Origin: Alphaproteobacteria bacterium
GTDB taxonomy: Bacteria; Pseudomonadota; Alphaproteobacteria; Micavibrionales; Micavibrionaceae
Length of the DNA: 64,000 nucleotides
Assembly: GCA_002401695.1 (NCBI GenBank)
Contig: NVTV01000003.1
Coordinates: 310,001-374,000 of the forward strand
Direction: 5' to 3'
Made by a program: the position numbers and the translations under genes. The notes under the pieces are model-generated. The model was given only the letters and a program-made list of their open reading frames with translations, was not told the origin of the DNA and ran no database searches. Below are positions 1 to 13,883 of this stretch, one piece after another. How positions within the stretch are numbered: the stretch's first letter is position 1; each line of letters starts with the position of its first letter.

Positions 1-695
1 GTATGGGCGCGGCGTGGCCGAAAGTGTTGGATGGTCGTGCGTTTGATCGTGTATGTGATATGGTGCAGGGCGTATCCGATATGGGCATGGAGGCGTGTGT
101 GACGCTGGGTATGTTAACCGAACCGCAGGCGGTGAAGTTGAAGGCGGCTGGCTTGACGGCATATAACCATAATCTGGATACGTCACGTGAATTTTATGAC
201 AAGGTTGTGACCACGCGTAATTATGATGATCGTCTGGATACATTGAAAAATGTTGCGAAGGCGGGGATTAATGCTTGCTGTGGCGGGATTTTGGGATTGG
301 GCGAGAGCGATGCAGATCGTGTTTCTTTGCTGCATACCTTGGCGAACCTTAATCCGCAGCCTGAATCAGTGCCGATTAATATGCTTGTCCCTGTTGAGGG
401 CACGCCGATGGCAGAGAATAAGATGCTTGATATTTTTGAGTGGATCAGATGTATCGCCGTTGCACGTATTTTGATGCCAAAGGCAATGGTGCGTTTATCT
501 GCTGGGCGTTTGACGATTTCCAAAGAAGCACAAGCCATGGCCTTTATGGCAGGCGCGAATGCGATCTTCACGGGGGAGAAGCTCCTCACCACACCCAACC
601 CTGAAAAAGATGCAGATTACGCATTATTGGGCGAGTTGGGCATTAAACCACGCGCTCCGTTTAAGGATGAAAAGCCGGAAGAGGCCGCGGCGTAG
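1..695 (+). CDS. bioB: Biotin synthase BioB, 5'-truncated by window edge
   Basis: BioB is a radical-SAM enzyme that inserts sulfur into dethiobiotin, the last step of biotin synthesis. The window opens inside the gene, so the CxxxCxxC radical-SAM cluster motif lies outside. What remains (about 230 residues, reading frame starting at base 3) includes the conserved Cys of 'EACVTLG', the Cys of 'ACCGGI', the Arg-containing 'VRLSAGR' motif that serves the [2Fe-2S] cluster in characterised BioB, and the family C-terminus 'LLTTPNPE'. The ATG at base 3 is an internal Met of the usual 'CMGAAW' motif, not a start. It ends with TAG and is followed by two orphan genes before bioF, so the biotin operon is interrupted here. 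Confidence 0.97.
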
Positions 696-2239: not shown

Positions 2240-3352
2240 ATGCAGCAGTTTCAAAATGCACTATCAGAGCTAAAAGATCAGAATCGATACCGGTCTTTGA
2301 ATTTGCCGGATGGGATTGATCTGACTTCTAATGATTATATGGGTATGGCGGTGCATCCGCACTTGCGGACTGCGGCTATTGAAGCGTTGGAGGACGGCCT
2401 TGATATCGGCGCGGCGGGGTCGCGTTTGTTGCGCGGGCATACGCCTTCTCATGCAGAGCTGGAATCTTATGCCGCCACATATTTCAAAGCAGGCGGGGCG
2501 TTGTATTTTGCCAGTGGGTTTCAGGCGAATTATGCGTTGCTGACGACCTTGCCCGATCGCCGTGATGTAATTTTGTATGATGGACTTGTTCATGCCAGTG
2601 TTCGTGATGGTTTAATTGCGACGCAGGCGAAAAACTATAAATTTGCGCATAATGATATGGACGCGCTGGAGGCGTTATTAAAGCGTCACCGTGAAAGTGC
2701 GGGAACGATTTGGATTGCTGTTGAATCGGTTTATTCGATGGATGGTGATATTGCGCCGTTGAGCGATCTTCACGCGCTGGCTGTGCGTTATGATGCGATG
2801 CTGATTGTTGATGAAGCGCATGCTACGGGTATTTACGGTACGGATGGTAAAGGATTGTGCTGGGACATTATCGATGCGCATGGCTATGACCATTTGGTAA
2901 CGCTGCATACGTGCGGCAAGGCGATTGGTGTGGCGGGTGGCTTGGTTTGCGCGTCTTCGGCTGTGATTGACTATATGGTGAATAAGGCGCGGCCCTTTAT
3001 ATTTTCAACCGCGCCGATGCCCTTGCAAGCGTTGCTGGTGCAGAAATCTCTGGAAATTTTGGCGTCCGAGGATGGCGCGCAGCGTCGGGAGAGGCTGTTT
3101 AAAATATGTGCGCTGGGGCAGGAACTATTCGGCGGTGCGGGAACGCAAGTGATTCCGATTATTCTGGGCGAAGATGAAAAAGCGGTGCGTGTTGCCACGG
3201 CCATGCAAGAGGCAGGATATGATATTCGCGCCATCCGTCCGCCGACAGTGCCACAAGGGCAGGCGCGTTTGCGTTTGTCTTTAAGTTCGGAGCTGGAGCC
3301 TGCTGTTTTACAAGGTTTCTCTGATGCGCTACAACCGTATATGGAAGGGTAG
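2240..3352 (+). CDS. bioF: 8-amino-7-oxononanoate synthase
   Basis: PLP enzyme of the alpha-oxoamine synthase family that condenses pimeloyl-thioester with L-alanine in biotin synthesis. At 370 residues it is slightly shorter than E. coli BioF. Visible family marks are 'SNDYMGM' near residue 30, the Gly-rich 'GAAGSRLLRGH' (~58-68), the PLP aspartate in 'LIVDEAHATGIYG' (~190) and the Schiff-base lysine in 'HTCGKAIGVAGG' (~230). The N-terminus is short but the ATG at 2240 leaves the conserved core complete. First gene of a tight bioF-bioD-bioA unit, with 3 bp to bioD. Confidence 0.96.
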   Translation: MQQFQNALSELKDQNRYRSLNLPDGIDLTSNDYMGMAVHPHLRTAAIEALEDGLDIGAAGSRLLRGHTPSHAELESYAATYFKAGGALYFASGFQANYALLTTLPDRRDVILYDGLVHASVRDGLIATQAKNYKFAHNDMDALEALLKRHRESAGTIWIAVESVYSMDGDIAPLSDLHALAVRYDAMLIVDEAHATGIYGTDGKGLCWDIIDAHGYDHLVTLHTCGKAIGVAGGLVCASSAVIDYMVNKARPFIFSTAPMPLQALLVQKSLEILASEDGAQRRERLFKICALGQELFGGAGTQVIPIILGEDEKAVRVATAMQEAGYDIRAIRPPTVPQGQARLRLSLSSELEPAVLQGFSDALQPYMEG

Positions 3353-3355
3353 AGC

Positions 3356-4012
3356 ATGACGCATAAATTTATCATTACAGGCACAGATACAGATATTGGC
3401 AAGACCGTGTTTTCGGCTGCGCTTATGCTGGGGTTAGAGGCCGCAGGTCATACGCCGCATTACTGGAAGCCCGTGCAGTCAGGCATTACCGAAAATGTGG
3501 ATACGCGCCGTGTGCAGAAATTAACCAACTTGCCCGATGAGCGTTTCCTGTCCGAGCGTTATATTTTCAGTGAGCCATTATCCCCGCATCTTGCCGCCGA
3601 AAAGGATGGCACGGAGATTGATGTTGATGCGTTGCAAGACCCTGCGCAAATACCTGAATGCGCGGGCGCGCTGGTGATTGAGGGTGCGGGTGGCTTGATG
3701 GTGCCGTTAACGCGCAATAATTTGCAGATTAATGTGTTCCAGAAATGGAAGGCTCCCCTTATTTTATGTGCGCGCACGGGGTTGGGTACGATTAACCATA
3801 CGCTGTTATCGCTGGAAGCCATCTGGGCGCGGGATATTCCGTTGAAAGGTATTGTGTTTATTGGCGATGATAATGCGGATAATATCCGTACGATTGCGGA
3901 GATGTCCAAGGTGAAAGTTTTAGGGCGTTTACCTTTGGCTGATGAGCTGGATGATACGATGCTGCGCCTTTTGTTTGCGAATAATTTCAAGATCGGGGAT
4001 TTTGTTGAATGA
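3356..4012 (+). CDS. bioD: ATP-dependent dethiobiotin synthetase
   Basis: BioD closes the ureido ring of dethiobiotin from 7,8-diaminopelargonate, CO2 and ATP. The 218-residue protein begins with the P-loop 'GTDTDIGKTVFSAAL' at residues ~8-22, then the substrate lysine region 'YWKPVQSG' (~38-45) and 'VIEGAGGLMVPL' (~105-116), all standard for the family. Its ATG follows the bioF stop by 3 bp and its TGA overlaps the bioA ATG in an ATGA arrangement, consistent with translational coupling in a bioFDA unit. Length and motifs are normal. Confidence 0.96.
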   Translation: MTHKFIITGTDTDIGKTVFSAALMLGLEAAGHTPHYWKPVQSGITENVDTRRVQKLTNLPDERFLSERYIFSEPLSPHLAAEKDGTEIDVDALQDPAQIPECAGALVIEGAGGLMVPLTRNNLQINVFQKWKAPLILCARTGLGTINHTLLSLEAIWARDIPLKGIVFIGDDNADNIRTIAEMSKVKVLGRLPLADELDDTMLRLLFANNFKIGDFVE

Positions 4013-5310
4013 GTAAGGCTAAATCCACCTCTCCTTTGTGGCATCCCTATACACAGCATGCCATTGCCCCTGACTCCATCCATATAGACCGTGCAGCGGG
4101 CGCATATTTATTTGCGCGTAATGAGGTTAATGGTGTGCCCAAGGGGGAGCGCCGCATTATCGATGCGATTTCCAGTTGGTGGGTGATTACGCATGGGCAT
4201 TGCCACCCTGAAATTATGCACGCGGTGCAACAGCAAGCAGGCGCGCTGGATCAGGTTATATTTGCTGGATTTACCCACGAACCTGCGGAAATGTTGGCAG
4301 AGAATTTAATTGCGGTCACAGGTGATCGTCTGGAGCATGTTTTTCTATCTGATAGTGGATCAACCGCGGTTGAGGTGGCCTTGAAAATGGCGATTGGATA
4401 TTGGGAACATTCCGGCCATCCGCGGCGTAAGATTATCGCTCTGGAGGGTGGGTATCACGGTGATACATTTGGCACGATGTCTGTCGGCGGGCGCAGTGTT
4501 TATCATAAATTATACGAGCCTTATATGTTTGAGGTGGAGCATATCCCTTTCCCTGTGGCAGGATGCGAAGCCGAAACCTTTGCCGCACTGGAAAAGGTGC
4601 TGGATGATCATAAAGATGACATTGCCGCTTTTGTGTTTGAGCCTTTATTACAGGCTGCTGGCGGGATGCGGGTTTATTCATCTGATGTTCTCAAAACCAT
4701 GGCCGATATGTGCCGCGCGCATGGTGTGTTGTTGATTGCCGATGAGGTGATGACAGGGTTCGGGCGCACGGGAACGATGTTTGCGTGTCAGCAGGCCGAT
4801 TTTGTGCCTGATTTGATGTGCATGTCTAAGGGGCTGACGGGCGGGTTTCTGCCTTTGGGTGCGACCCTTTGCAGCAAGGATATTTATAACGCGTTTTATC
4901 ACAAGGATAAGGCGAAAATGTTTTTCCATTCCTCGTCCTTTATGGGCAATCCGTTATCTTGTGCGGCGGCGAATGCTTCGCTTCGTATTTGGGAAGATGA
5001 TGAAGCGGTGCAGGATAAAATAGATAACATCGCCAAGGCGCATGCGGAGGCCGCCGTGAGTTTTGCGCGGCGCGGTGATCTGACGAATATACGGCAAAAG
5101 GGGACGATGCTGGCGATGGATTTGGCGGTAGAGGATGGCGGTTATCTTTCTGATATTCAGCCAAAATTATATGAGTCTTTCCTCTCACAAGGGGTTTTGT
5201 TGCGTCCGCTGGGTAATACGGTGTATATTCTACCTCCATACTGTATCAGTGAGAATGATCTGAATGTGGTGTATAGCGCGGTGAATGTTGCGCTGGATAA
5301 GGTTTTTTAG
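4009..5310 (+). CDS. bioA: Adenosylmethionine-8-amino-7-oxononanoate aminotransferase
   Basis: Class III PLP aminotransferase that converts 8-amino-7-oxononanoate to 7,8-diaminopelargonate using S-adenosylmethionine as amino donor. The 433 residues carry 'HPYTQH' near the N-terminus, 'SSWWVITHGHCHPEI', the glycine-rich 'SDSGSTAVEVALKMA', 'IADEVMTGFGRTG' with the PLP aspartate, and the Schiff-base lysine in 'CMSKGLTGGFLPLG'. It overlaps bioD by 4 nt. Its last 121 bp (5190-5310) recur almost unchanged at 6283-6403, the trace of a duplication described separately. After its TAG a GGGGAG/ATG pair at ~5315-5326 opens a frame that soon fails, perhaps the start of a lost neighbour. Confidence 0.96.
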   Translation: MSKAKSTSPLWHPYTQHAIAPDSIHIDRAAGAYLFARNEVNGVPKGERRIIDAISSWWVITHGHCHPEIMHAVQQQAGALDQVIFAGFTHEPAEMLAENLIAVTGDRLEHVFLSDSGSTAVEVALKMAIGYWEHSGHPRRKIIALEGGYHGDTFGTMSVGGRSVYHKLYEPYMFEVEHIPFPVAGCEAETFAALEKVLDDHKDDIAAFVFEPLLQAAGGMRVYSSDVLKTMADMCRAHGVLLIADEVMTGFGRTGTMFACQQADFVPDLMCMSKGLTGGFLPLGATLCSKDIYNAFYHKDKAKMFFHSSSFMGNPLSCAAANASLRIWEDDEAVQDKIDNIAKAHAEAAVSFARRGDLTNIRQKGTMLAMDLAVEDGGYLSDIQPKLYESFLSQGVLLRPLGNTVYILPPYCISENDLNVVYSAVNVALDKVF

Positions 5311-5341: not shown

Positions 5342-6160
5342 CTACATTTTAGGAATACTTACATCTGGAGAACTCTGATCGGGAGACACAGAATCTTGAA
5401 TATTGTCTTGTACTTGAGATAGCTCTTTAGTGAACTTTTCTGTCGATATAGCCTCTATCTGGAGGCAGCCAAATTCGTCTCTTGTTTGTAGTTGTTGAGC
5501 TGCTGGCTCGTAATCTATTGAGCCATTCTCATTGGTGCAATTGGCAAATTCAACATTCTCAAAAAGTGGGTTCTGTGTGTAAGCGTATTGGGCTGATGGC
5601 TCTATTTCTGTAAATTGTTCTGCAAATTGTTTTCTGAGGCTTTGTTCGTCAAGATCATAAGTGATTTCGCCAATTTTTAATGTATGTTCATCCTTGTTAT
5701 AGCCCGCTTTAATATCGTCCATATATTCTGGAGTGTATTGTATTTCCCGTGCTTCTTCCAAGCTTCTAACAGGTCTTGCGTGATGCCATCCATAATTATA
5801 TCCGTCTTGGATATCTCTTGCCTTGTCATTGGCTACATCCAGCGTTGAGAGCACACCAACTTGAAGTTTTGTGTTTTGGAGGGCGTTTTCTAAATCGCTT
5901 GCATTATCGTATTGCTTTAATTCATCTATAGAGGCTTCGATAAGTTCACGTCGGGATGCTAAGTTCATGCCTTTATATTGTTCGACTACATCTTCTGCTC
6001 TGGTGGTGTAAGAATTTAATAATCTATTTTGAATTGTGTATTCTCTTCGTAAATTGGGGGGTGTGTCAGGCGCATTATCTTGGAATGCAGCCAATAGATC
6101 AGGTGTGTTAAAATCCTCGCGAGGATTTTCTGTGGGGCTTAAATAATCTATTGTATTCAT
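5342..6160 (-). CDS. Orphan acidic protein inserted beside bioA
   Basis: A 272-residue protein on the opposite strand to its neighbours. I do not recognise it. It has no signal peptide or membrane helix, is rich in Asp, Glu, Asn and Gln, starts with a Pro/Asp-rich segment, has a predicted helical region around residues 55-110 ('RRELIEASIDELKQYDNASD') and ends in a Ser/Pro/Asp-rich tail. The gene fills the space between bioA and the duplication scar, which suggests it arrived with the rearrangement that destroyed a first copy of the DnaA-domain-IV-like gene. Codon third positions are more AT-rich than in bioA, compatible with a different history, although I did not count them. Confidence 0.75.
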   Translation of the reverse strand: MNTIDYLSPTENPREDFNTPDLLAAFQDNAPDTPPNLRREYTIQNRLLNSYTTRAEDVVEQYKGMNLASRRELIEASIDELKQYDNASDLENALQNTKLQVGVLSTLDVANDKARDIQDGYNYGWHHARPVRSLEEAREIQYTPEYMDDIKAGYNKDEHTLKIGEITYDLDEQSLRKQFAEQFTEIEPSAQYAYTQNPLFENVEFANCTNENGSIDYEPAAQQLQTRDEFGCLQIEAISTEKFTKELSQVQDNIQDSVSPDQSSPDVSIPKM

Positions 6161-6241: not shown

Positions 6242-6403
6242 ATGTAGAGGCGGTGGCTGAAAAGCTTGCATTGATTTAGATTAGGGGTTTTGTTGCGTCC
6301 GCTGGGCAATACGGTGTATATTCTACCTCCATACTGTATCAGTGAGAATGATCTGAATGTGGTGTATTGCGCGGTGAGTGTTGCACTGGATAAGGTTTTG
6401 TAA
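6242..6403 (+). pseudogene. Duplication scar: orf tail fused to bioA tail
   Basis: Two gene tails are joined here. Bases 6242-6287 match the 3' end and stop codon of the DnaA-IV-like gene (6677-6714) with a few changes. Bases 6283-6403 match the last 121 bp of bioA (5190-5310) at 115 of 121 positions, with a TAA in place of TAG. The join shares AGGG between both parents. This is what a tandem duplication of [bioA tail + DnaA-IV-like gene] through a 4-bp microhomology would leave, followed by loss of most of the first gene copy. The scar still supplies the sequence just upstream of the intact DnaA-IV-like gene, including its AAGGA ribosome-binding site at 6402-6406. Confidence 0.85.
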
Positions 6404-6412
6404 GGAACAAAA

Positions 6413-6712
6413 ATGAGTGATCTAAAGAAAATTCGTAGAACAGTATCAGATTATTTCGGGGATATTGTTACCGTTAAAAAACTGGAAGAAACCGGTGGTA
6501 GTAAAACAGTGACTCAGGCAAAGGCAGTTGGCGTTTATGTTGCACGCAAGGAGGGGAATGAATATGAGGATATCGCAAAGATTTTTGGCTATGCAAACGA
6601 GAGATCTGTTTCTCGTGTGTTTACGAAAGTGAATGAAGAAATGTCATATGGCGGCACGGTGCAGCGTGATGTTAATGCGGTGGCTGAAAAACTTGGTATT
6701 GATTTAGATTAG
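6413..6712 (+). CDS. Stand-alone DnaA domain-IV-like DNA-binding protein
   Basis: A 99-residue protein that resembles only the C-terminal DNA-binding domain of DnaA. 'VSDYFGDIVTVKKL' matches the 'V..YF.V...DL' entry to domain IV, 'TQAKAVGVYVARKEGNEYED' matches the '..R..AM.L.K......EIG' helices, and 'IAKIFGYANERSVSRVFTKV' aligns with the DnaA signature region in which E. coli has GGRDHTTVLHA. The signature itself is changed: Arg, Ser and Val replace His, Thr and Thr, so DnaA-box recognition is probably altered. There is no AAA+ module. SD AAGGA is 6 nt before the ATG. It lies directly before dnaN, the place dnaA occupies in the usual dnaA-dnaN-recF-gyrB order. Function inferred: DNA binding, perhaps origin or clamp-loader-locus regulation. 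Confidence 0.8.
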   Translation: MSDLKKIRRTVSDYFGDIVTVKKLEETGGSKTVTQAKAVGVYVARKEGNEYEDIAKIFGYANERSVSRVFTKVNEEMSYGGTVQRDVNAVAEKLGIDLD

Positions 6713-6785
6713 GGCTTCTGCCGCGTGAATCGCTATGCTAAACTCCGGCTATATATAACATAAAATTAAAATGGATGGATTCGCC

Positions 6786-7901
6786 ATGAAACTGAGTATT
6801 GATCGTTCAGCTCTATTGAGAGCACTAAATCACGTGCAAAGTGTTGTGGAGCGCCGTAATACGATCCCGATCCTTTCCAATGTTTTGATGAAAGCAGAGG
6901 ACGGTGTTTTGGCACTATCCTCAACCGATATGGATCTCGAAATTAACGAATCAGTGGCGGCGAATGTTACAATGGCCGGTGCAACGACTGCGCCCGCAGG
7001 CACATTCCATGAAATTGTCCGTAAATTACCTGATGAGGCCGAGGTCGAGATTGAGCTGAATGCAGAAGGTACGCAAATTACTGTGCGTTCCGGTCGCTCT
7101 AAATTTAAACTGAGCTGTTTGCCTGTGGCTGATTTTCCTGAAATTTCAACGGGTGATTTGCCGAGTGGTTTTTCATTGCCGGCATCTGATCTGCGTGCGC
7201 TTATTGATCGTACAAAATTTGCGATGAGCACAGAAGAAACCCGTTATTATTTGAACGGTATTTATTTGCATGAGGCTGATAATGATGGCGTAAAAGTTTT
7301 GCGCGCGGTTTCAACGGATGGCCATAGATTGGCGCGTTTCGAAATGCCTTTACCAGAAGGTGCGGCGGATATGCCTGCGGTGATTATTCCGCGCAAGGCG
7401 ATTGGTGAAATACGTAAGTTGATTGAAGATGCTGCTGACTTGATACAAATCACATTATCCGAAAACAAAATTCGTTTTGCATTTGATCATATTGTTTTGA
7501 CGTCAAAATTGATTGACGGAACATTTCCTGATTATCAACGCGTTATTCCACAAGGTAATGACAAGATTGTTGAAATTGATCCTAAGGTATTTTCACGGGC
7601 GATTGACCGTGTTTCAACGATTTCAGATGGTAAGTCGCATGCGCTTAAAATCACATTGGATGGTAAGTTGATGACCCTTTCCGCCAGTTCCCCCGAAGCG
7701 GGCAGCGCGACGGAAGAGTTGGAAGTAAACGGTGATGCGAATATGGAAATTGGTTTTAACGCAAAATATCTTCTGGATATTACCTCGCAAATCGAGGGTG
7801 AGGGATGTCGTTTGACGTTGGCCGATTCCGCCAGCCCGACCATCATTCAGGATAATAGTGATCCTTCCTCGTTATATGTGTTGATGCCGTTGAGGGTGTA
7901 A
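6786..7901 (+). CDS. dnaN: DNA polymerase III beta sliding clamp
   Basis: The ring-shaped processivity clamp of the replicative polymerase. I start it at the ATG at 6786 (MKLSIDRSALL), which has a TGGA 6 nt upstream and matches the family N-terminus; a longer frame opens at 6771. The 371-residue protein shows the typical 'VVERRNTIPILSNVLM' near residue 20, 'STDMDLEI', 'SCLPVADFPEI', 'STDGHRLA' in the middle domain and the C-terminal 'YVLMPLRV', which is the conserved tail lining the partner-binding pocket. Followed after 12 bp by an orphan membrane-anchored protein and then recF. Confidence 0.97.
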   Translation: MKLSIDRSALLRALNHVQSVVERRNTIPILSNVLMKAEDGVLALSSTDMDLEINESVAANVTMAGATTAPAGTFHEIVRKLPDEAEVEIELNAEGTQITVRSGRSKFKLSCLPVADFPEISTGDLPSGFSLPASDLRALIDRTKFAMSTEETRYYLNGIYLHEADNDGVKVLRAVSTDGHRLARFEMPLPEGAADMPAVIIPRKAIGEIRKLIEDAADLIQITLSENKIRFAFDHIVLTSKLIDGTFPDYQRVIPQGNDKIVEIDPKVFSRAIDRVSTISDGKSHALKITLDGKLMTLSASSPEAGSATEELEVNGDANMEIGFNAKYLLDITSQIEGEGCRLTLADSASPTIIQDNSDPSSLYVLMPLRV

Positions 7902-8621: not shown

Positions 8622-9755
8622 ATGAGCGCACTTAAGAGCATTAAACTTCATAATTTCAGATGTTATGAGCAGGTTTCCTTGGGGGATTTATCTTCGGGGT
8701 TGATTGTGTTGTCAGGGGTTAATGGCGCGGGGAAAACCAATATTTTAGAGGCGGTATCGTTGCTTTCTCCCGGGCGGGGTTTGCGCGGGGCGCGGGTGAT
8801 GGAAATTCAGAAGAATGATTCCGATGCGCCGTGGGCTGTCGCGGGGTTGTTTCATTCTCATTATGGTGATGAAGTGCGCCTTGGTACTGGCCTTGATCCT
8901 AATTCCCGTCAGGGCGCGGAAAAGCGCACGGTGCGGATTAATGGCAGTGCGGTGAAAAGTCAGGCGGCATTGGGTGAGTATTTATCCTGTGTTTGGCTGA
9001 CCCCGCAGATGGATCGTCTGTTTATGGATTCAGGGCGCGAGCGTCGTAAATTTCTCGATCGTCTTATCTTTGCTTTTGATCCCGGTCATTCGGGGCGGGT
9101 GTCGCGCTATGAAAATGCATTGTCACAGCGCTCGAAGTTGCTGCGTGAGGGTAATGCTGATGGCACGTGGGTTTCGGGTTTGGAACAGCAAATGGCGGAG
9201 ACGGGCATCGCGATTGCGGCGGCGCGGCTTGATTTTGTCAGCAGGTTACAAGCGGCGTGTGAGGCGGCGGATCATACGCACTTTCCGTTGGCGCGTTTTC
9301 GGGTGAAAGGAACGATTGAAGAATTGCTGGAGAATGCGCCTGCGTTGGAGGTTGAAGAGGCTTTTAAATATCAGCTTACCGAAAGTCGCGTGCGTGATGG
9401 TATTACGGGCGGGGCGGCAAGTGGTCCGCATAAATCTGATCTCTCGGTGATCTATGCGGAGAAGAATATGCCTGCGGATCAATGTTCAACGGGGGAACAG
9501 AAAGCACTATTGATTGGGCTGATCCTTGCGCATGCGCGGTTGATTAAGGCAGAGCGCGGCGCGGCGCCGATCTTGCTGTTGGATGAAGTCGCGGCGCATT
9601 TGGATGAGGGTCGCCGTGGTGCTTTGTATGGGATATTGCAGGATTTGGGCGCGCAAAGCTGGTTGACGGGGACGGAAAGCAACCTGTTTACCGCGATTGA
9701 AGGCAAGGCGCAGTTTTTTGACGTAAGAGATTTTTCTGTCCATAATGTAACGTGA
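8622..9755 (+). CDS. recF: DNA replication/repair protein RecF
   Basis: SMC-like ATPase that helps load RecA at gapped DNA together with RecO and RecR. The 377-residue protein shows 'LHNFRCYEQ' at the N-terminus, the Walker A 'GVNGAGKTNILEAV' (~34-47), 'GLRGARVMEI', the family 'WLTPQMDRLFMDSG..RRKFLDR' region (~125-145), the ABC signature-like 'STGEQKALLIGL' and Walker B 'PILLLDEVAAHLD' (~322-334). Normal length. It stands between dnaN and gyrB as in many bacteria, although two extra genes and hisC break the usual tight spacing. Confidence 0.95.
   Translation: MSALKSIKLHNFRCYEQVSLGDLSSGLIVLSGVNGAGKTNILEAVSLLSPGRGLRGARVMEIQKNDSDAPWAVAGLFHSHYGDEVRLGTGLDPNSRQGAEKRTVRINGSAVKSQAALGEYLSCVWLTPQMDRLFMDSGRERRKFLDRLIFAFDPGHSGRVSRYENALSQRSKLLREGNADGTWVSGLEQQMAETGIAIAAARLDFVSRLQAACEAADHTHFPLARFRVKGTIEELLENAPALEVEEAFKYQLTESRVRDGITGGAASGPHKSDLSVIYAEKNMPADQCSTGEQKALLIGLILAHARLIKAERGAAPILLLDEVAAHLDEGRRGALYGILQDLGAQSWLTGTESNLFTAIEGKAQFFDVRDFSVHNVT

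Positions 9756-11336: not shown

Positions 11337-13883
<2,547 letters not shown>

Follow-up and report, generated by a model that had tools for sequence, protein, structure and literature searches.

The window analysed here, a stretch of 64,000 nt comprising positions 310001-374000 of contig C8 in a 3.06-Mb draft genome (G000), carries directly in front of dnaN a small gene, X, whose 99-aa product (P0001) is, by sequence and predicted fold, a free-standing, complete DnaA domain IV. The open reading frame is real and looks selected, and X-type genes occupy the same spot in related genomes of one clade of the Micavibrio group, which is predatory. The identity of X and its genomic setting are firm; what is said below on its function is interpretation. 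The features of the window referred to in the text are listed in Table 1.

Table 1. Position of X and of neighbouring features in the window (nt; position 1 is the first nucleotide of the window)
Feature	Position	Strand	Remark
bioB, 3' part	3..695	+	
bioF	2240..3352	+	
bioD	3356..4012	+	
bioA, last intact bio gene before X	4009..5310	+	
272-aa ORF at presumed place of first X copy	5342..6160	-	
Probable remnant, 3' end of a former first X copy	6242..6298	+	direct repeats D2/D3
Duplicated bioA 3' tail	6283..6402	+	96% identical to 5190-5309; ends 10 nt before X
X, stand-alone DnaA domain-IV-like gene, 99 aa	6413..6712	+	ORF, profile matches, predicted fold
Codons for residues 62-73 of X, equivalent of the DnaA recognition helix (NERSVSRVFTKV vs DHTTVMHAIRKV)	6596..6631	+	profile alignment; model helix 63-77
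59 nt identical in G000 and G004 (last 48 nt of X and 11 nt beyond)	6665..6723	+	
dnaN	6771..7901	+	second, conserved ATG at 6786
recF	8622..9755	+	from translation
gyrB	11424..13883	+	from translation

A preliminary description of this DNA had proposed a 99-residue protein at this place that aligns with domain IV of DnaA and lacks the rest of it, and both points were confirmed. X starts with an ATG preceded at ~7 nt by AAGGA. The Pfam profile Bac_DnaA_C (PF08299) matched residues 5-62 (E=3e-6) with 27.6 bits, yet below its curated threshold of 31.5, and the DnaA model TIGR00362 matched residues 3-94 with positions 347-437 of its 437, the C-terminal end (9e-6). With 99 aa and a match limited to these positions, X has no AAA+ domain III and no ATPase motifs. 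An HMM of DnaA domain IV built from 43 relatives scored X at 18.4 bits; nine small ORFs, shuffled to give 1800 sequences, reached at most 8.8 bits. Conversely, a profile of the five clear X members gave the 43 DnaA domains scores with a median of 14.2 bits and a maximum of 19.1 (two below 7), the best of 1075 shuffles reaching 7.3 bits.

Structure prediction with AlphaFold2 and the five-member alignment yielded five models of X with pLDDT from 90.6 (pTM 0.83) down to 71.2. Foldseek returned DnaA for all of the first 11 matches of the X model (best E 0.0037, none below 0.001), the DNA-bound DnaA domains 3pvp and 1j1v aligning at TM 0.80-0.82. Alignment to the DnaA DNA-binding domains with VIA-align gave Z 14.8 and 14.7 over 92-93 residues (for 3pvp, 14.8 over 92 residues at 1.8 A), so that the predicted fold is that of domain IV; the best other fold reached 6.1. 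Since only DnaA folds come out on top, and over 92-93 residues, X is predicted to comprise the whole domain. The protein of genome G009 had zero Pfam matches up to E 1, yet its model (pLDDT 85.8) also has DnaA as nearest fold, with Z 11.7 vs 5.5 for the first other fold, a weaker case than X because Z under ~13 can, according to the VIA-align advice, reflect a common arrangement in helical proteins. DnaA likewise made up the first five Foldseek matches of this model, at weak E-values of 0.34-1.2.

Domain IV of DnaA is highly conserved, and its His434 and Asp433 contact bases. In PMC9638019, Thr435 is described as contacting a base, Arg442/Lys443 the backbone and Arg399/Ser400 the minor groove. 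By alignment, the equivalents in X are Arg64 for Thr435, Thr71/Lys72 for Arg442/Lys443 and Gly29/Ser30 for Arg399/Ser400. The profile alignment, which is ungapped in this part, pairs D-H-T-T-V of DnaA with N-E-R-S-V of X; the D-H-T-T signature of DnaA is absent from X, with N-E-R-S instead. That the signature is rewritten had been noticed at the outset and stands, but the residues then given, Arg/Ser/Val, came from an alignment that was one residue off and are to be replaced by Glu/Arg/Ser at His434/Thr435/Thr436. Compared with DnaA (PF08299; 1j1v, 3pvp), X thus resembles domain IV in being the whole domain, co-linear to the C-terminus, and differs from DnaA in lacking domains I-III, in an identity of 17-21%, in the substitutions at His434/Thr435/Thr436 and, by alignment, of Arg442 by Thr, and in a charge of 0 vs about +6.

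The charge difference extends to most of the family. The last 95 residues of 43 DnaA proteins carry a net charge between +3 and +9, on average +6.2. X has a net charge of 0 (pI 6.3), the G004 protein +4, the G015 protein +1, the two G003 copies -2 and -4 and the other six proteins -3 to -20, among them the acidic members of G009 (-9), G073 (-9) and G006 (-20); 10/11 X-type proteins fall below the DnaA range. Between G000 and G004, 1/12 residues of the recognition helix differ, and 22/87 elsewhere (Fisher p=0.29, not significant), and the constancy of this helix is therefore suggestive at most. Between G016 and G072, 8/12 residues of the equivalent segment and 41/104 of the rest differ (p=0.12, not significant). 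From these sequences we infer that recognition of the DnaA box has been lost; the proteins of G000 and G004 plausibly contact DNA in a rewired way, and it is doubtful that the acidic members bind DNA. The mostly lost basic charge argues against the recognition of altered boxes, as first envisaged, being a function of the whole family.

As first described, X lies directly before dnaN, with recF and gyrB further on, the latter two named from their translations. The accompanying notion that dnaA is missing from this region or has been relocated did not hold up. A full dnaA (480 aa, with the DHTT signature) lies in the same region, at C8:307156-308598 on the strand of dnaN; the window begins 1.4 kb, and dnaN 8.2 kb, further downstream. 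With dnaA intact upstream of the bio genes and dnaN, X is no substitute for dnaA. Between the two genes lie, among others, bioB, two ORFs, bioF, bioD, bioA, a reverse ORF of 272 aa and X. The two ORFs within the bio cluster span 762-1487, with weak, sub-cut-off HEAT-like and DMP19-like matches, and 1622-2167, for which a Pfam search gave no match.

Comparison of the dnaN-upstream content in 81 rows (80 related loci and the window, each examined over a finite stretch) revealed dnaA without bio genes in 33, bio genes in 33 and neither within the stretch in 15. All 33 bio-gene rows fall into one 35-row clade of the dnaN tree (support 100/96). Second dnaN matches in G044, G089, G112 and G116, and a second dnaA with dnaN close by in G029 (L118, G029:C20), could be mixed bins or true duplicates. 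A replication origin close to X was considered and rejected: the GC-skew minimum of contig C8 lies at 268,953, ~47 kb from X and ~38 kb before dnaA, and no strict DnaA box (TTWTNCACA) occurs between C8:302,313 and 324,679. Given this position of the skew minimum, dnaA and dnaN are both unlikely sites of the origin.

The spacing of the X-type genes ties them to the bio genes. With start codons chosen mechanically, the distance from the bio-end stop codon to the X-type start is -11 to +20 nt in nine of 11 cases, three of which are overlaps of 4 nt; the bio-end gene is either bioA or a 215-aa gene following it. The second copy in G003 begins 43 nt after the first copy. In G000 no full ORF ends that close upstream, but a duplicated bioA tail of 120 nt retains a spacing of 10 nt. 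Distances to dnaN are 56-225 nt, with the point 6 nt ahead of the conserved dnaN ATG taken as the end. Given the tight spacing to the bio-end gene, X is better assigned to the bio operon, as its terminal cistron, than to dnaN; X-type genes are possibly translationally coupled to this operon, and their adjacency to dnaN may be a consequence of its position. Near X, sigma-70-like sites occurred at chance level (5 vs a mean of 4.8 in shuffles), all on the minus strand, and terminator-like sites (5 vs 1.4 in shuffles) lay inside bioA, the bioA-tail copy and the 272-aa ORF. The ~215-aa protein (EEARHAYFF motif; L175 8892-9533 and equivalents) is encoded between bioA and dnaN in many genomes of the bio-containing clade; it had no match in NCBIfam and none over cut-off in Pfam, and the position of its gene suggests an unrecognised biotin-pathway protein.

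Upstream of X, the segments 5190-5309, 6242-6298 and 6283-6402 of the window look like the footprint of a tandem duplication of the bioA tail together with X. The first X copy probably survives solely as a 3' remnant beside the unrelated reverse ORF of 272 aa, and in G003 both tandem copies are still present. At the limits used, the 272-aa ORF matched nothing in Pfam, PHROG, NCBIfam or PADLOC, and the 57 other genomes searched contained no relative.

A search of 104 genomes of the family with profile A1 detected five clear matches in four genomes (G000, G004, G015 and two in G003), all before dnaN, and two further weak matches elsewhere (E 0.05-0.08). The same profile found G000 and two weak partial matches in longer ORFs (E 0.008-0.009) among 289 genomes of the class. 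As just weak matches appeared beyond pre-dnaN sites in these two sets, a wider spread of X was rejected. Small ORFs at the spot of X in G005, G006, G009, G016, G072 and G073 are too divergent for profile A1. At this spot we surveyed 89 genomes of the family and order, which together contributed 90 regions upstream of dnaN, with the dnaN start found in 89 regions; G059 (L168, no dnaN start) and G020 (contig ending 198 nt before dnaN) are unjudged, and G007 and G008 of the genus, whose dnaN is incomplete at the start, were left out. X-type genes are present at this spot in 10/89 genomes examined, with the open frame kept in all 10. They make up ten of the 27 ORFs of 80-200 aa that end near dnaN, a set that leaves out the first G003 copy, which ends too far upstream. 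At E<=0.05 the core profile recovered 3/6 members outside its build and 0/17 other ORFs, and a profile of the G009/G016 type 5/6 members and 1/17 other ORFs; the match of the latter profile to a small ORF in G048 (L114; E=0.025), outside the clade, was taken as chance. G005 and G006 are putative members, assigned by weak profile matches together with position.

In the dnaN tree, nine X-bearing rows (the tenth bearing genome, G073, is not in the tree) fall within one 13-row clade (99/97), whose other four rows are without the gene; one gain and two losses suffice for this pattern. The bio-containing clade has 22 further rows beyond the X clade, none of which showed an X-type gene; by parsimony, X therefore arose after dnaA and dnaN had separated, as a later gain inside the bio-containing clade. 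On a contig other than that of dnaN, G019 carries a 178-aa ORF (L116 1774-2310) whose N-terminal part weakly matches DnaA domain IV. Among titles and abstract openings of the literature on Micavibrio with dnaA/dnaN and on DnaA domain IV fragments, a set with subscription papers mostly outside it, we recognised no description of an X-type gene.

X is a constrained but fast-changing coding gene. The proteins of G000 and G004 are 77% identical with dN/dS 0.27, compared with 0.06-0.08 for bioA, bioD and bioF and 0.03 for dnaN between the same genomes; the two G003 copies show dN/dS 0.70, and G016 vs G072 a pS of 0.77 and a pN of 0.27. Synonymous sites over the whole of X differ at 36% between G000 and G004, and the identical stretch of 59 nt at its 3' end is possibly a dnaN control element or a trace of recent recombination. 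A phylogenetic comparison with DnaA domain IV and GafY-like proteins, proposed at the outset, placed the X family in a group of its own (100/99), though on very long branches, and did not single out a nearest source: X is no closer to DnaA of the bio clade than to others (15 vs 28 domains, p=0.31), the local dnaA being one candidate source. A tblastn search with P0001 gave no match among phages (50,697 records) or plasmids (72,556), two viral-contig scans showed no relative, and the best PHROG match stood at E 0.006 for nine proteins and at 0.028 for P0001; a phage or plasmid origin was rejected on this absence of match alone. The PADLOC defence library contained nothing for P0001, and its weak match to the G009 protein (E 0.024) was taken as chance.

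Reuse of DnaA parts has precedents. Hda and the RIDA proteins are DnaA-derived regulators, Hda being the AAA+ part of DnaA; X is likewise related to DnaA, but to domain IV. An Hda search of G000 gave no match over cut-off and is uninformative, since just 1/14 control genomes passes the same cut-off. GafY (first named HdaB; Caulobacter CCNA_01111) is a DnaA domain IV homologue that binds promoter regions and, with GafZ and IHF, activates the gene transfer agent (GTA), as stated in PMC9632790 and PMC11150451. The former proposes that GafY acts in producing the GTA rather than at oriC. GafA, too, is DnaA-like in its N-terminal part (PMC9638019). Like GafY/HdaB and this region of GafA, X is a short alphaproteobacterial DnaA-IV protein. 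DUF6456 (GafZ partner) was found in 13/76 genomes of the class, and 6/14 loci examined carry ORFs matching the DnaA-IV HMM (GafY-like). Unlike P0001, which has neither motif, these six proteins keep the DnaA-like motifs ARQ (6) and GRDRTT (5), in a set that is biased to such motifs since it was found with the DnaA-IV HMM. The core profile gave three weak matches to the six (6.0-8.4 bits, about the level of the best shuffle), and in hhalign it aligned with GafY-like proteins as well as with DnaA-IV (E 4e-5 and 1.4e-4).

Two readings of X found little room beside these data. If dnaA had moved away and left, or been replaced by, the domain in X, the gene would stand directly before dnaN, the position of dnaA in many outgroup genomes, as it does; with dnaA intact 8.2 kb upstream, this is contradicted for G000, the 22 bio-clade rows outside the X clade have no such gene, and we regard it as scarcely credible. 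That X is itself a GafY/HdaB protein is suggested by the same kind of short protein in the same class and by the comparable hhalign scores. DUF6456 was detected in the Caulobacter control and in 0/12 genomes of the X genus (its own included, four of them <90% complete); together with the missing motifs in P0001 and the separate, if very long-branched, tree group this led us to reject GafY/HdaB membership, which we consider very improbable.

Loss of function and change of function weigh more. X could be a decaying by-product, a duplicated 3' end of dnaA without selected function that is slowly being lost. Its fast divergence, its absence in 4/13 clade rows, the destroyed first copy of the window and the dN/dS of the G003 pair would all agree with this; the dN/dS between G000 and G004, the excess of pS over pN between G016 and G072 and the open frame kept in 10 genomes speak against it, and X is no closer to DnaA of the bio clade than to that of other genomes; we think this reading improbable. 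A better, though still unlikely, case can be made for a module that does not bind DNA, in which the DnaA-IV fold serves as a protein-contact domain and adjusts initiation by binding, for example, DnaA, the clamp or an Hda-like protein. Most members have lost the basic charge, and the G009 protein still models as a DnaA fold without a Pfam match, albeit with a Z below the ~13 advised for mostly helical models; the recognition-helix equivalent of G016 and G072 tends to be more variable than the rest. G000 and G004, on the other hand, retain several basic helix-turn-helix residues and a near-constant recognition helix.

We tentatively prefer, at somewhat less than an even chance, a reading in which X, a paralogue of DnaA-IV, was recruited a single time to serve as a small regulator and not as an initiator, with its DNA reading rewired in the line of the window and perhaps abandoned elsewhere. 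X would have been captured once, at the base of its Micavibrio clade, and DnaA itself would remain the initiator. In the window line (G000 and G004) the protein would most likely still touch DNA via its helix-turn-helix, through a changed basic patch (Arg/Lys64, Arg68, Lys72, Lys31, Lys37), with a specificity other than the DnaA box and acting locally on the bio/dnaN region; GafY, a DnaA-IV domain used as a transcription factor, would be the model. The predicted fold, the constraint between G000 and G004, the spacing to the bio genes, the single clade of bearers and the GafY precedent favour this reading; the net charge of X and of most relatives, the sigma-70-like sites at chance level, the location of the terminator-like sites and the variable helix segment of G016 and G072 speak against it. 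Several sister lines would have seen the recognition helix and the basic charge decay, with the function probably changed or lost, and this decay, together with the absence of the gene from four clade rows, points to a dispensable function. Since the predicted shape is kept and the parts that read DnaA sites are not, the job of X is probably new.

Stand-alone DnaA-IV proteins are as such already known from GafY, and X represents a variation on this theme. Conceivably, although we would not expect it, the free domain IV in at least several lines of this one Micavibrio clade has dropped DNA binding and kept the fold, becoming a module for protein contacts that evolves fast and, from its place in the dnaA-bio-dnaN region, tunes replication or links it to the supply of biotin. 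A clade whose free copy keeps the predicted fold and drops the signature and, for most members, the charge forms a natural series on the parts of domain IV, and asks which of them serve the reading of DNA and which something else. With X, the few known cases of DnaA parts put to uses other than initiation (GafY, GafA) would gain another.
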